Below are positions 9,702 through 14,347 of a stretch of DNA of 64,000 nucleotides, one piece after another. The notes under the pieces are model-generated. The model had not been told where the DNA came from and did no database searches. It saw only the letters and a list, made by a program, of their open reading frames with translations. Origin of the DNA: an uncultured Flavobacteriales bacterium (GTDB lineage: Bacteria > Bacteroidota > Bacteroidia > Flavobacteriales_G > Salibacteraceae). Both the position numbers and the translations under genes were made by a program. Where the stretch lies: NCBI GenBank assembly GCA_943788145.1, contig CALSPD010000015.1, positions 1-64,000 of the forward strand, in the 5' to 3' direction. The first letter of the stretch is position 1. The number at the start of each line of letters is the position of its first letter.

Positions 9702-9819
9702 TTTAGACATGATAGGCTATGCATTTCATCTTTACCCTTCAGTAGGAAACTAGCTCTTTCTTCACGCTTTTGTTTAATTCTTGATCGATCCGCTGCTTAG
9801 CTTTCTAAATCTATTTCAA

Positions 9820-10383
9820 ATGAAAAACATCCTTTTTGCAATCGCATCCATTTTGATTTTGTTTGCTTGCACGCAAAAGCACGAAACTCATGATGACGAC
9901 ACATCCGTTAAACTTTTGGAGGACATAATTGATACCACTGCAACTGCGCCAGTGCAAATCATCGAGCCCGAAGAAGTCGATATGGGATTGCGTTCTGTGA
10001 AAGCCAAATTCATCGATTTTGAATTGGGCGATGCCGAGCATTATTCTTTTCAGGATGAACAAGGAAATTATTGGGAGTTTTCGGGTTGCGATGACACTGA
10101 GATTGAATTTGGTATCGAACTCGATGAAAATGAAGCAGATGAGCGCAATCAAGGCTGGGGCGCGAATTATATGCATTTGCCTGTGCCGATTTTGAACGAT
10201 TCTTACAAGGTTGGGCACCCGGTCATTGGAAGTCAAACAATTATGCTCAAAGACAGGTGGATAGAATTGTTGACGTATTGTGAAGTTGAAAGTCCTGTGA
10301 AGTCGAAAGTCTATAAGTCGAGCGTCCATTTCATAGTTAAATACCCGGACTTCCGACTTTTTGACTTCGAACTTTCCGACTAA
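9820..10383 (+). CDS. Hypothetical lipoprotein whose C-terminus is encoded by a repeat
   Basis: 187 residues from ATG 9820; the TTG at 9781 is too far upstream. ASILILFACTQK is a lipoprotein signal with the lipobox cysteine near residue 17. The body is acidic (DDDTSVKLLEDI, EFGIELDENEADE). The stretch after about residue 155 (EVESPVKSKVYKSS to FDFELSD) is encoded by the first copy of the palindromic repeat that flanks the four-helix-bundle gene. The native C-terminus was therefore probably replaced when that element arrived. I do not recognise the family. Confidence 0.65.
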   Translation: MKNILFAIASILILFACTQKHETHDDDTSVKLLEDIIDTTATAPVQIIEPEEVDMGLRSVKAKFIDFELGDAEHYSFQDEQGNYWEFSGCDDTEIEFGIELDENEADERNQGWGANYMHLPVPILNDSYKVGHPVIGSQTIMLKDRWIELLTYCEVESPVKSKVYKSSVHFIVKYPDFRLFDFELSD

Positions 10384-10398
10384 TTTAACTTCCGACTA
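10315..10398. repeat. 84-bp direct repeat, copy 1 (left of four-helix-bundle gene)
   Basis: Begins AAGTCGAGCGTCCATTTCAT and ends AACTTCCGACTA. It is about 95 percent identical to copy 2 at 10820-10904, with one indel and about three mismatches. The right part is an array of GACTT/CGACT words about ten bases apart. Just upstream (10282-10320) the reverse-complement words GAAGTC/AAAGTC occur, so the whole forms an imperfect palindrome around a central GCGTCCATTTCATAGTTAAA. A further GACTT-rich tail reaches 10430. Confidence 0.85.
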
Positions 10399-10433
10399 AC
10401 CGACTGTTCGACTTCGGACTTTCCGACTAACGT

Positions 10434-10781
10434 TTATTTCAGAGCTTTAATCAGACCATAAATGACGCGAGAAACTTCTTCGCAGTTCTCTATTAATTCG
10501 CCTTTCATTATTTCATCAATAAATTCCAATCGACTTGCTAAATAAGTCATTGATTTCACCTCATCACAAGAGGCTCTGGCAATGTTTAAAAATCGGATGA
10601 ATTCCTTATCTGAGCTTCGGTTAAATCCTTCAGCAATATTGTTTGATACAGAAACAGAGGCACGTGTAATCTGGCTTCTAAAGCTGCGATCCTTTGTCTC
10701 ATCAAAATGTTTGTAAACCAAAACACCTAAATCTTGTGCTTTTTGCCAAGCAATGATGTCCTCGAAACGCTGGATTTTCAT
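10434..10781 (-). CDS. Four helix bundle protein (S23 / 23S rRNA intervening-sequence protein family)
   Basis: 115 residues with the family pattern FEDIIAWQKAQDLGVLVY, then FRSQITRASVSVSNNIAEG near residue 45 and FIRFLNIARASCDEVKS. The family (TIGR02436) forms pentameric four-helix barrels related to Avd of diversity-generating retroelements. Some members are encoded in 23S rRNA intervening sequences, and many sit in Bacteroidota genomes with GACTT-type repeats around them. No reverse transcriptase or variable repeat is seen nearby. The gene lies alone between two 84-bp direct repeats, between a lipoprotein gene and icmF, and so looks like an inserted unit. Its biochemical role is unproven; nucleic-acid binding is inferred from the family. 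Confidence 0.9.
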   Translation of the reverse strand: MKIQRFEDIIAWQKAQDLGVLVYKHFDETKDRSFRSQITRASVSVSNNIAEGFNRSSDKEFIRFLNIARASCDEVKSMTYLASRLEFIDEIMKGELIENCEEVSRVIYGLIKALK

Positions 10782-10819
10782 GCTACTGATTTAATTAGGT
10801 CGTAAGTCTTTGAGTTTTA

Positions 10820-10904
10820 AAGTCGAGCGTCCATTTCATAGTTAAATAGCTGGGACTTCCGACTTTTTGACTTCGTACTTTCCGACTAATTTAACTTCCG
10901 ACTA
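10820..10904. repeat. 85-bp direct repeat, copy 2 (right of four-helix-bundle gene)
   Basis: Same orientation as copy 1 and nearly identical, offset by 505 bases. Reverse-complement words (GTCGTAAGTC, AAAGTCGAG) at 10799-10828 precede the GACTT-rich right arm, again making an imperfect palindrome. It ends three bases before the icmF stop codon (10910-10908), so it may also act as the 3' end region of the icmF transcript. Confidence 0.85.
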
Positions 10905-10907
10905 CAC

Positions 10908-13900
10908 TTACATATTCCTTCTATACTGCCCACCGACTTCGAAAAGTGCATTCGTAATTTGTCCCAACGAGCAATATTTACACACTTCCAACAGCTTTTC
11001 AAACATGTTATCGTTGTTGATGGCAGCCTTTTGGAGATCTCGTAACAATGCGGCTTGTTTGTCTTCATTGCAAGTATGCAATCGGTTCAACATGCTGATT
11101 TGATATTGCTTTTCTTCTTCTGTAGCACGAATCACCTCTTTTGGCAAAATAGTCGGGCTGCCTTTGGAGCTCAAGAAAGTGTTTACACCAATGATGGGGA
11201 ATTCACCAGTATGCTTTAAGGTTTCGTAGTACAAGCTTTCTTCTTGGATCTTACTGCGCTGATACATGGTTTCCATGGCTCCCAACACCCCACCACGCTC
11301 GGTGATGCGGTCAAATTCGAGCAATACGGCTTCTTCTACCAAATCGGTCAGTTCTTCTATAATGAAGGAACCTTGCAATGGGTTTTCGTTCTTCGCCAAT
11401 CCCAATTCTTTGTTGATGATCAACTGAATGGCCATCGCACGTCTCACGCTTTCTTCCGTTGGCGTTGTAATCGCCTCATCATAAGCGTTAGTATGTAGAG
11501 AGTTGCAGTTGTCGTAAATCGCATACAAGGCTTGCAGCGTGGTTCGAATGTCGTTGAAATCAATCTCTTGTGCGTGCAAACTTCTACCACTCGTTTGGAT
11601 GTGGTATTTCAGCATCTGGGCCCGAGGATTGGCTCCGTACTTATATTTCATTGCTTTAGCCCAAAGTTTTCGAGCTACTCGACCAATTACTGCATATTCA
11701 GGATCGATACCGTTGCTAAAGAAGAAGCTGAGGTTAGGTCCAAAGTCGTTGATATCCATACCTCGGCTGATGTAGTATTCCACGTAGGTGAAACCATTTG
11801 CCAAGGTAAACGCTAATTGCGAAATCGGATTCGCCCCAGCCTCCGCAATGTGGTAACCACTAATGGAGACCGAGTAAAAATTACGCACCGCATGGTTGAT
11901 GAAGCTTTCTTGCACATCACCCATTAATCGCAACGCAAACTCTGTGCTGAAGATGCAGGTGTTTTGTGCCTGGTCTTCTTTCAAGATATCGGCCTGCACG
12001 GTTCCGCGCACCACGCTCATGGTTTCCTTGCGGATCTTAGCATACACATCAGCTGGCAACACTAAGTCGCCCGTGGCGCCCAAGAGCATTAAGCCCAATC
12101 CATCATTTCCTTCCGGAATATCACCTTGGTATTTAGGACGTTCTAGCCCCCGATCTTCCCAAAGCTCTTTCAGTTTTTTCTCCACGTCTTTTTCAAGACC
12201 GTTGGCTTTGATGTATTTCTCACACGCTTGATCCACAGCTGCATTCATGAAGAAACCCAACAACATTGGCGCTGGACCGTTAATGGTCATCGATACAGAT
12301 GTTTTTGGATCGCTCAAGTCGAAACCTGAATAGAGTTTCTTGGCATCGTCTAAACAGCAAATGCTCACCCCAGAGTTACCCACTTTACCGTAGATATCGG
12401 GTCGGTGATCGGGATCGTTACCGTATAGCGTTACGGAGTCAAAAGCCGTGCTCAATCGCTTGGCTGGCATGCCCAAACTCACATAGTGAAATCTTCGGTT
12501 GGTACGCTCGGGCCCACCCTCACCTGCAAACATTCGGGTTGGATCTTCCCCTTCCCGCTTAAACGGAAATAATCCAGCTGTATAAGGAAACTCTCCGGGT
12601 ACATTTTCTTGCAAGGTCCAGTTCAAAATATCGCCCCAGCTTCTGTATTTCGGGGTAGAAATCTTTGGAATTTGGTTGTGGCTCAAGGACTCAGAATGAG
12701 TGGCAATCTTTAGTTCTTTGTCGCGCACTTTGAACGTATAGAATTCATCCTTGTAGCGCTGCATCTCCGATCCAAATGACTGGAGGACGTCCCAGTTGTG
12801 TGGGTTAAGGTCTTTCCTTATTTGCTCGAACTTATCTATCAGAGACTGAAGTTGCGGACTGTTCGCTGCTGGATTTTGGACATTTGCTTGCAGCTGATCT
12901 TCTCCCCCAAAAAGCATAAGGGCTTGGTTCAAACCATATAGCTTGTCGGCCACATCCGACTGGGCAGCCGCTTGCTTGTCGTATGCGCGGTTGTTCTCGG
13001 CAATTTCACTTAAATATCTTGTTCGTGCCGGAGGAATTATGAAGATCTTCTCGCTCATCTCATCCGTGATTTCGAACGTAGATTTCAATTCCGTTGCACC
13101 CGCTTTGTTCACCATCAAATCCATGATTTGCTTGTAAAGCGTGTTCATGCCCGGATCGTTGAACTGGCTGGCGATGGTGCCAAAAACTGGAATATCGTCA
13201 TCCGAAGTATCCCACAATTGGTGATTGCGCTTGTATTGTTTCTTCACATCTCGAACGGCATCCAACGCCCCGCGCTTATCAAACTTATTGACAGCAACGA
13301 TGTCGGCAAAGTCCAGCATATCGATCTTTTCCAGCTGCGTGGCGGCACCAAATTCTGGCGTCATTACGTACAAACTTGCATCGCTATGATCCAAGATTTC
13401 GGTGTCACTTTGACCAATTCCGGATGTCTCAAGGATGATCAAATCGAAATTAGACGCTTTCAAAATATCGAGCGCTTCTTGCACGTGTTTGCTCAACGCT
13501 AAGTTGCTCTGTCTCGTAGCCAAGGAACGCATGTAAACACGTTCATTTCGAATGGCATTCATACGGATTCGATCGCCTAACAAGGCTCCGCCTGTTTTCT
13601 TTTTGGATGGGTCAACACTAATGATTCCCAGGGTTTTATCCTTAAAATCGATCAAGAATCTACGCACCAATTCATCTACGAGAGAGCTCTTGCCCGACCC
13701 ACCCGTTCCGGTAATTCCCAGAACCGGAGTCTTGGATTTCTTCGCCAATTCGGTGATTTTGGCCATTTCAGCTTTGAAACCTTCTGGATTGTTTTCCGCG
13801 GCTGAGATCAATCGTGCTATCGAACCTCGGTCTTTGGCATTTAAGTGCCCTACTTCCCCGTTCAAGTTCATTCCCGTTGGGAAATCAGCCTTTTCCAACA

Positions 13901-14318
13901 TGTCGTTGATCATTCCTTGCAATCCCATGGCGCGCCCATCGTCTGGATGATAGATTCGGCAAATGCCATAGTCCTGTAGTTCTGCTATTTCTTCTGGTAA
14001 AATGGTTCCACCGCCTCCACCAAAAATCTTGATGTGGCTGGCGCCTTTTTCCTTCAGTATATCATACATGTACTTAAAATACTCCGTGTGACCACCTTGA
14101 TAGCTCGTCATGGCAATGGCTTGCGCATCTTCCTGAATAGCGCAATTCACCACCTCTTCCACACTTCTATCGTGTCCCAAGTGGATGACTTCGGCACCTG
14201 TACTTTGAATGATTCTGCGCATGATGTTGATGGCGGCATCGTGGCCATCGAACAGCGAAGCTGCGGTAACGATTCGAATTTTATTCTTGGGAGTATAGGG
14301 TGCAGCAGTTTGCGTCAT
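10908..14318 (-). CDS. icmF: Fused acyl-CoA mutase IcmF (isobutyryl-CoA mutase type)
   Basis: 1136 residues from ATG 14318, the usual IcmF length; the TTG at 14342 is less likely. Domain order: a B12-binding domain (residues 1-140, with [13 protein letters not shown] and FGGGGGTI), a MeaB-like GTPase chaperone (P-loop [12 protein letters not shown] near 205, [16 protein letters not shown]), a linker, then the mutase barrel from about 560 ([28 protein letters not shown]). It interconverts isobutyryl-CoA and n-butyryl-CoA, or a related branched pair, using adenosylcobalamin. The built-in G domain loads and protects the cofactor. It supports branched-chain carbon metabolism in the cytoplasm. No frameshift occurs over 3.4 kb, which contrasts with the genes just to its right. 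Confidence 0.93.
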
Positions 14319-14339
14319 GCGAGCTTTTTTTATGGCCGA

Positions 14340-14347
14340 CAAAGATA
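14340..14347 (-). promoter_or_regulatory. -7 element TATCTTTG for icmF
   Basis: Read leftward, TATCTTTG matches TAnnTTTG 21 bases before the icmF ATG. No TTG is found at the expected distance, so only the -7 half is supported. Confidence 0.4.

Follow-up and report, generated by a model that had tools for sequence, protein, structure and literature searches.

An S23 gene between repeat arrays behind icmF in a Flavobacteriales genome: probably a mobile, intercistronic relative of the 23S rRNA intervening sequence

The question raised by this locus, which lies in a 64,000-nucleotide stretch of contig CALSPD010000015.1 (assembly GCA_943788145.1, an uncultured Flavobacteriales bacterium) that is referred to below as the window, is why a gene for one small helical protein should stand alone between two nearly identical repeats, and whether it reached that position as a mobile unit, as the initial annotation proposed. 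The gene (10434–10781, minus strand) encodes a 115-residue four-helix-bundle protein of the S23/IVP family, and matches the profiles PF05635 (E = 2.7e-31) and TIGR02436. Its host gene, icmF (10908–14342, minus strand), encodes a fused isobutyryl-CoA mutase; the S23 gene is located 3' of it and runs in the same direction, and a lipoprotein-like open reading frame converges from the other side (9820–10383, plus strand; the listed frame starts at 9781). The name of the latter is simply the label first given to it, as it has no Pfam or NCBIfam match at an E-value of 0.001, and since its frame terminates within one of the arrays (at window positions 10282–10383) its last codons are repeat sequence. 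Of the two arrays that flank the S23 gene, one runs from the icmF stop codon, beginning a few bases from it, to the S23 start (10782–10907) and has, read in the S23 sense, AGTC-type words followed by GACT-type words; the other, 3' of the S23 stop (10282–10433), has the same order of words but is longer and has the stronger hairpin. The direct repeats of about 84 bp that had been described lie within these arrays, at 10820–10904 on the icmF side and 10315–10398 on the lipoprotein side (both given on the plus strand), and they were confirmed: 81 of 85 aligned columns are identical, and their alignment score is 148, whereas no score above 29 was reached by 1,981 pairs of segments drawn at random from the window.

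Some of the internal detail needs adjustment. The words had been taken to be spaced about ten bases apart, but the spacing of AGTC and GACT is mostly 7–9 bases and only once 10, being longer at the loop and at places that lack a word; with words 7–9 bases apart, no lag-7 array rises above threshold in the window. The description of both repeats as imperfect palindromes holds for the lipoprotein side, where the array has an inverted score of 31 (random 99% level 26, random maximum 49) and folds better than shuffled sequences (z = −4.3), but much less so for the icmF side, where the inverted score is 16 and z is −1.2. The idea that a local hairpin is conserved behind icmF was considered and rejected, as among the six icmF-site hairpins compared none of the 16 pairs had changed on both sides. 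If instead the outer arms of the unit are scored against one another (i.e. the 5' flank against the reverse complement of the 3' flank, with mismatched pairs of flanks as the null), the window gives 23, one short of the 95% line, which is at 24, and the same-site loci of two relatives, G004 and G006, lie above it, at 33 (L006) and 47 (L007) respectively.

The most literal form of the original proposal is that the unit is bounded by the 84-bp direct repeats and was moved by recombination between them. Although the repeats are real, and a tandem duplication is visible at the corresponding site in G006, at most loci of the family the flanks are inverted rather than direct; no more than 7 of 70 among the relatives' loci listed have direct arm matches that outscore 99% of mismatched pairs, and the ends of the family are inverted heptamer arms. 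Moreover, the repeat has no further copy in the window's own genome (86.6% complete), where a 151-base query found no strong place beyond the two copies, the one additional match being of 19 bases (E = 0.2); other genomes share the heptamer-arm architecture but with different words. Movement by repeat–repeat recombination thus appears improbable, and the direct repeats look like the product of local duplication or rearrangement, not the ends of an element. Behind the intact S23 gene of G006 (L007, L088) the duplicated region has 21 codons of the icmF tail in a further copy, along with a hairpin array and the beginning of a broken S23 gene, and in G003 (L090) there are short icmF tail copies after icmF without S23. 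As regards contents, the unit in the window holds S23 alone, neither a recombinase nor a RAYT-like transposase being found in it by Pfam search. The same genome (G000) has one further S23 gene, 32% identical (L002, contig C7), beside which a run of GTGATTA heptamers occurs on a single side only.

S23 genes are common among relatives, being present in 68 of 100 related genomes, and the architecture of the unit is best examined across such loci. The relatives' set comprised 71 loci (L001, L002, L006–L074) among those listed, including 40 next-listed stretches, of which one (L026) was excluded for a short flank to leave 70 for arm matching; a named set consisted of the best 80 of at least 575 relatives, picked by likeness to one Nostoc protein, of which 78 were used, two being short; and a plasmid set consisted of 8 of the 42 records found, a non-random choice including two near-copies of each other. 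Over the 71 relatives' loci among those listed, identity at a lag of seven bases within 60 bp of the gene is 0.436 upstream and 0.424 downstream, and at lag 14 it is 0.40, falling for both lags to about 0.25 at 200–900 bp; 7 is the best period in 88 of their 142 flanks, as against 44 of 552 control windows. The two flanks are also matched to one another. Arm scores exceed 95% of mismatched pairs at 47 of 70 relatives' loci among those listed (99% at 28), at 51 of 78 named loci from the best 80 of at least 575 (99% at 35) and at 6 of the 8 plasmid loci chosen from 42 records (99% at 2), leaving 23 and 27 loci below the 95% line in the relatives' and named sets; for flanks taken 400 bp away the 99% level is exceeded in 0/68, 0/72 and 0/8 respectively. 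The arms are polarised, in that among those above the 95% line G exceeds C in the 5' arm in 94 of 101 (41 of 45 relatives, 47 of 50 named loci and 6 of 6 plasmid loci). The named loci are spread over, for instance, Cyanobacteriota, Pseudomonadota, Planctomycetota, Chloroflexota, Acidobacteriota and a Thermoplasmata archaeon, the last being a weak case with an inverted score of 17. At the level of nucleotide sequence, these comparisons show that it is a feature of the family for S23 genes to stand between arrays of degenerate heptamers that are inverted and complementary to one another.

It might be argued that these are ordinary intergenic simple repeats, heptamer arrays being common and S23 merely occupying the same gaps. 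Arrays without S23 do exist: in one Nostoc genome (G100, L192–L209) 10 of 11 sites of a three-unit GGGAGTR pattern lack the gene, and PMC4692102 gives 186 and 183 GGGAATC arrays in Xanthomonas. Against this, the arms are matched within each locus and polarised, sites empty of the unit are without arms, and DUF559 genes of the same genomes, the sole control gene family, lack heptamer arms, with lag-7 identities of 0.28 and 0.27 over 21 loci (23 of 30 were retained, seven being omitted for long frames or a contig edge, and two of the 23 were short). Such an explanation, already disfavoured, is thus very improbable indeed. Several of the G100 sites are short inverted pairs, e.g. GGGAGTG with CCCAATG. 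Many of the DUF559 (PF04480) endonuclease-like genes (L220–L249) have inverted flanks of their own, of the CCCCTCT/AGAGGGG type; the idea that DUF559 is a regular second cargo was rejected, its loci not being heptamer-flanked as a set, though nesting in heptamer arms is seen in G005 and G006.

What is conserved appears to be the complementarity rather than the words. Arm words vary among loci (AGTAGGG, GGGAACA, TCAGATA, GGTTTAG, TAGCGAA and others), and the similarity of words is almost uncorrelated with that of the S23 proteins (Mantel rho 0.065, as against a permutation maximum of 0.049, and 0.026 after allowing for composition). Word scores of 30 or more are reached by 8% of pairs at a protein similarity of 0.5–0.6 and by 15% above 0.6, compared with 1–3% below, and this slightly higher word similarity between close S23 proteins may reflect some word dependence; strong word-specific recognition was rejected, since the correlation, though above the permutations, is near zero. 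For orthologues at the same site, the median match of an arm to its own partner is 32, against 16 with the arms of another genome, and the own partner is uniquely best in 18 of 41 cases, which implies that the pairing of the arms is maintained, by selection or by copying, as their sequence changes.

The unit mostly shares the direction of the genes around it. Of 159 loci, 150 yielded neighbours (picking the longest open reading frame is unreliable in GC-rich sequence), and in 31 of these the two neighbours disagree in direction; where they agree, S23 agrees with them in 108 cases and opposes them in 11. Within the named set (the best 80 of at least 575), S23 is opposed at 9 of 54 co-directional loci. 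At the 70 of the 108 co-directional loci that have an arm score of at least 26, the left arm starts a median of 0 nt from the upstream stop codon, and within −7 to +14 nt of it in 42, and the right arm ends a median of 5 nt ahead of the next start. Sites that recur include the suf genes, carA/carB, guaB/guaA, the pdh subunits and cas6/cas4, all names except the cas ones having been read from sequence. At L097 an S23 gene enclosed by heptamer arms separates cas6 from cas4; PMC3936711 reports 18 S23 genes in cas loci, and these may be insertions of the element.

Evidence as to mobility comes from comparing the same site in different genomes. Not every relative has this gene and its repeats at this position: an S23 gene with arrays lies 3' of icmF in G000, G004 and G006, i.e. 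in 3 of the 11 genus genomes with a readable icmF 3' end (one of which, G003, has a broken icmF frame), and in the other 8 the first 420 bases downstream of icmF do not contain S23. These 8 downstream regions are unlike each other, so that they are better called unfilled than clean empty sites; inspection by eye of the same 420 bases revealed no clear case of a single repeat copy without S23, and the unfilled site of G007 has a few AGTC words. At the dinB–dnaE site, compared in 10 genomes, S23 with arms is present in G003, G007, G009 and G010, G008 and G011 are without the unit next to dinB, and the dinB tail was not found in G004 and G000. When G008 is aligned with G010 the whole unit is an insertion within common flank. 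At this site G005 and G006 (L216, L217) have a DUF559 gene nested inside S23-type heptamer arms.

Four Nostoc plasmid sites give a clearer picture, based on 12 of the Nostoc matches, whose records, the element itself aside, are 78–96% identical to the query. Site A is occupied in L098 and L260 and empty in L250, L251 and L253, and L252 (520–760) has a gene-less version, with heptamer arms and a spacer of about 115 bp in place of S23; about 40 bases of the empty copies are missing from the occupied ones. Site B is occupied in L099 and L261 (in the latter the annotated S23 frame is shortened) and empty in L254–L258, site C is occupied in L258 and empty in L254, L255, L256 and L099, and site D is occupied in L095, with S23 antisense, and empty in L259. 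In all four the unit starts within about ten bases of the upstream stop codon, even at D where S23 is opposed, and the empty sites have no arms. At site B the unit has TTCTA on either side, which may be a 5-bp target-site duplication, and none is clear at A, C or D. There are also loci in which arm, gene and arm are alike but the flanks unrelated, namely L039 and L058 in one genome and L098 and L100 in two cyanobacteria. Comparison of such filled and unfilled sites shows that in some relatives the arm–S23–arm structure is gained or lost as a single unit; the proposal of a candidate mobile unit is upheld to this extent, but on evidence other than the direct repeats, which do not support mobility.

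An alternative that must be weighed is that these are resident RNA devices, in which vertically inherited operon DNA carries arms acting as an RNase III or RNA-stability stem in mRNA, S23 being an RNA-binding regulator and movement rare and incidental. The 108:11 co-direction is in its favour, as is the excision of rRNA intervening sequences by RNase III (described in PMC4990558), and so is the behaviour of the protein. Among labelled rows S23 proteins cluster by site, the dinB, hadh, icmF, fad, rhizo and guaBA sites requiring one change each (guaBA being poorly supported), suf 2 and carAB 3, with the proviso that 115 unlabelled rows may sit inside these groups; many insertions may therefore be old, and the clustering is compatible with long vertical descent as well as with homing. 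Values of dN/dS, which are rough as they rest on a simplified synonymous-site count, were 0.04–0.15 in 8 of the nine pairs that gave one (of 12 selected pairs two had saturated dS and one was identical), the exception being L095/L102 at 0.42 with a dS of only 0.05. For the window's S23 they are 0.05 against G004 and 0.04 against G006, with a dS of 1.2–1.6 that is near saturation, implying that the protein is maintained; by this measure S23 is under purifying selection. Against a purely resident device stand the gain or loss at the four Nostoc sites between otherwise similar records, the antisense copy at site D, and the fact that cyanobacterial S23 proteins are nested among alphaproteobacterial ones, which together leave it as an unlikely competitor. 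The reading that fits best is a mobile unit placed between cistrons and related to the 23S rRNA intervening sequence, and we would put at roughly 0.6 the probability that the window holds a member of a widespread group of small mobile elements, each made up of a 5' heptamer arm richer in G than in C, an S23 gene and a complementary 3' arm.

It is instructive to set this reading against several known systems. The cyanobacterial STRR sequences are heptameric repeats, and such repeats resemble the arrays described here in their 7-nt units, their mostly intergenic location and their partial occurrence as inverted pairs; they differ in that the arrays of the S23 family pair around a gene. The family's words are tandem 7-nt units, and those in the window are mostly 7–9 nt apart. 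In REPIN/RAYT systems, likewise, palindromic repeats surround a gene and gene-less copies exist, but the S23 unit is without a RAYT-like transposase and its word sequence is not conserved. The Avd protein of diversity-generating retroelements has the same four-helix fold as the window's S23, for which an AlphaFold2 model has four helices and a mean pLDDT of 97.6; the nearest solved folds are 2gsc (TM 0.92) and then 2rld, each of five chains, as against a TM of about 0.79 and weak E-values of 0.04–0.65 for Avd (4dwl, 8ub7). What differs is the setting, with no reverse transcriptase beside the window's S23, the RVT_1 matches of that genome being on contig C1 only, whereas the window lies on contig C15. 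Resident retro-mobility was likewise rejected, as RVT_1 and S23 show no association among 100 relatives: S23 is present in 15 of the 21 genomes with RVT_1 and in 53 of the 79 others, and 12 other genomes of the genus have RVT_1 in none and S23 in 11.

The closest parallel is the 23S rRNA intervening sequence, which carries an S23/IVP open reading frame in Leptospira and Coxiella (Ralph and McClelland 1993, as cited in PMC4990558 and PMC3936711) and in which that frame lies in the loop of complementary termini, the Coxiella example being reported to have heptamers 5' of it (PMC4990558). Complementary termini are found in much of the S23 family, the window falling just short of the 95% line and its two same-site relatives above it, but the window's S23 follows icmF rather than lying in an rRNA gene, and the units of the family stand between protein genes. 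A location of the flank-sharing loci in rRNA was rejected, since none of the 80 named loci (the best 80 of at least 575) has a match to LSU rRNA within up to 2.5 kb a side, a figure to be read with the fact that metagenome assemblies often lack rRNA. Heptameric repeats have themselves been described several times, e.g. TAACTGA (PMC4679880), GGGAATC and GGGGA(C/T)T (PMC4692102, which also gives 70 and 75 inverted-pair cases of heptamer arrays in two xanthomonads) and the Geobacter heptanucleotides (PMC2700814). S23 is unmentioned in the texts of these three papers; MacGregor 2015 was rejected as prior art, its text being without S23, "intervening" or "four helix", and in the open-access PMC literature no paper was found that ties S23 genes to heptamer arrays outside rRNA.

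Across the family the element fills intergenic gaps a short way from the upstream stop codon and is mostly oriented as the operon is. If the mobile reading is right, its two arms would pair into a stem, either as RNA or as single-stranded DNA. An S23 pentamer might bind this stem by its shape and heptad spacing rather than by any particular word, and host enzymes might cut it or make copies of it; the same design would then have a ribosomal branch in the 23S rRNA intervening sequence. Within the window, a single element would have settled behind icmF, and a later local duplication would have left a hairpin on each side, hence the direct repeats. A bolder proposal, which we hold tentatively and at rather less than even odds, is that this is a new kind of mobile element: one whose only protein is a pentameric S23, with no known recombinase, which enters close behind operon stop codons, has its ends set by heptad-spaced complementarity rather than by sequence, and, together with gene-less derivatives, gave rise to the heptameric repeats seen in cyanobacteria, Xanthomonas, Beggiatoaceae and Geobacter, the rRNA intervening sequence being one branch.

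With relatives lying between genes in very different microbes, arrays that can pair with each other and a unit that in some relatives comes and goes, this looks like a little-noticed mobile element. It brings together two old puzzles, namely the role of the S23/IVP protein and the origin of heptameric intergenic repeats, and it offers for both a concrete unit whose sites are found filled as well as empty, and which may in turn explain the puzzling seven-letter repeats of bacterial genomes.
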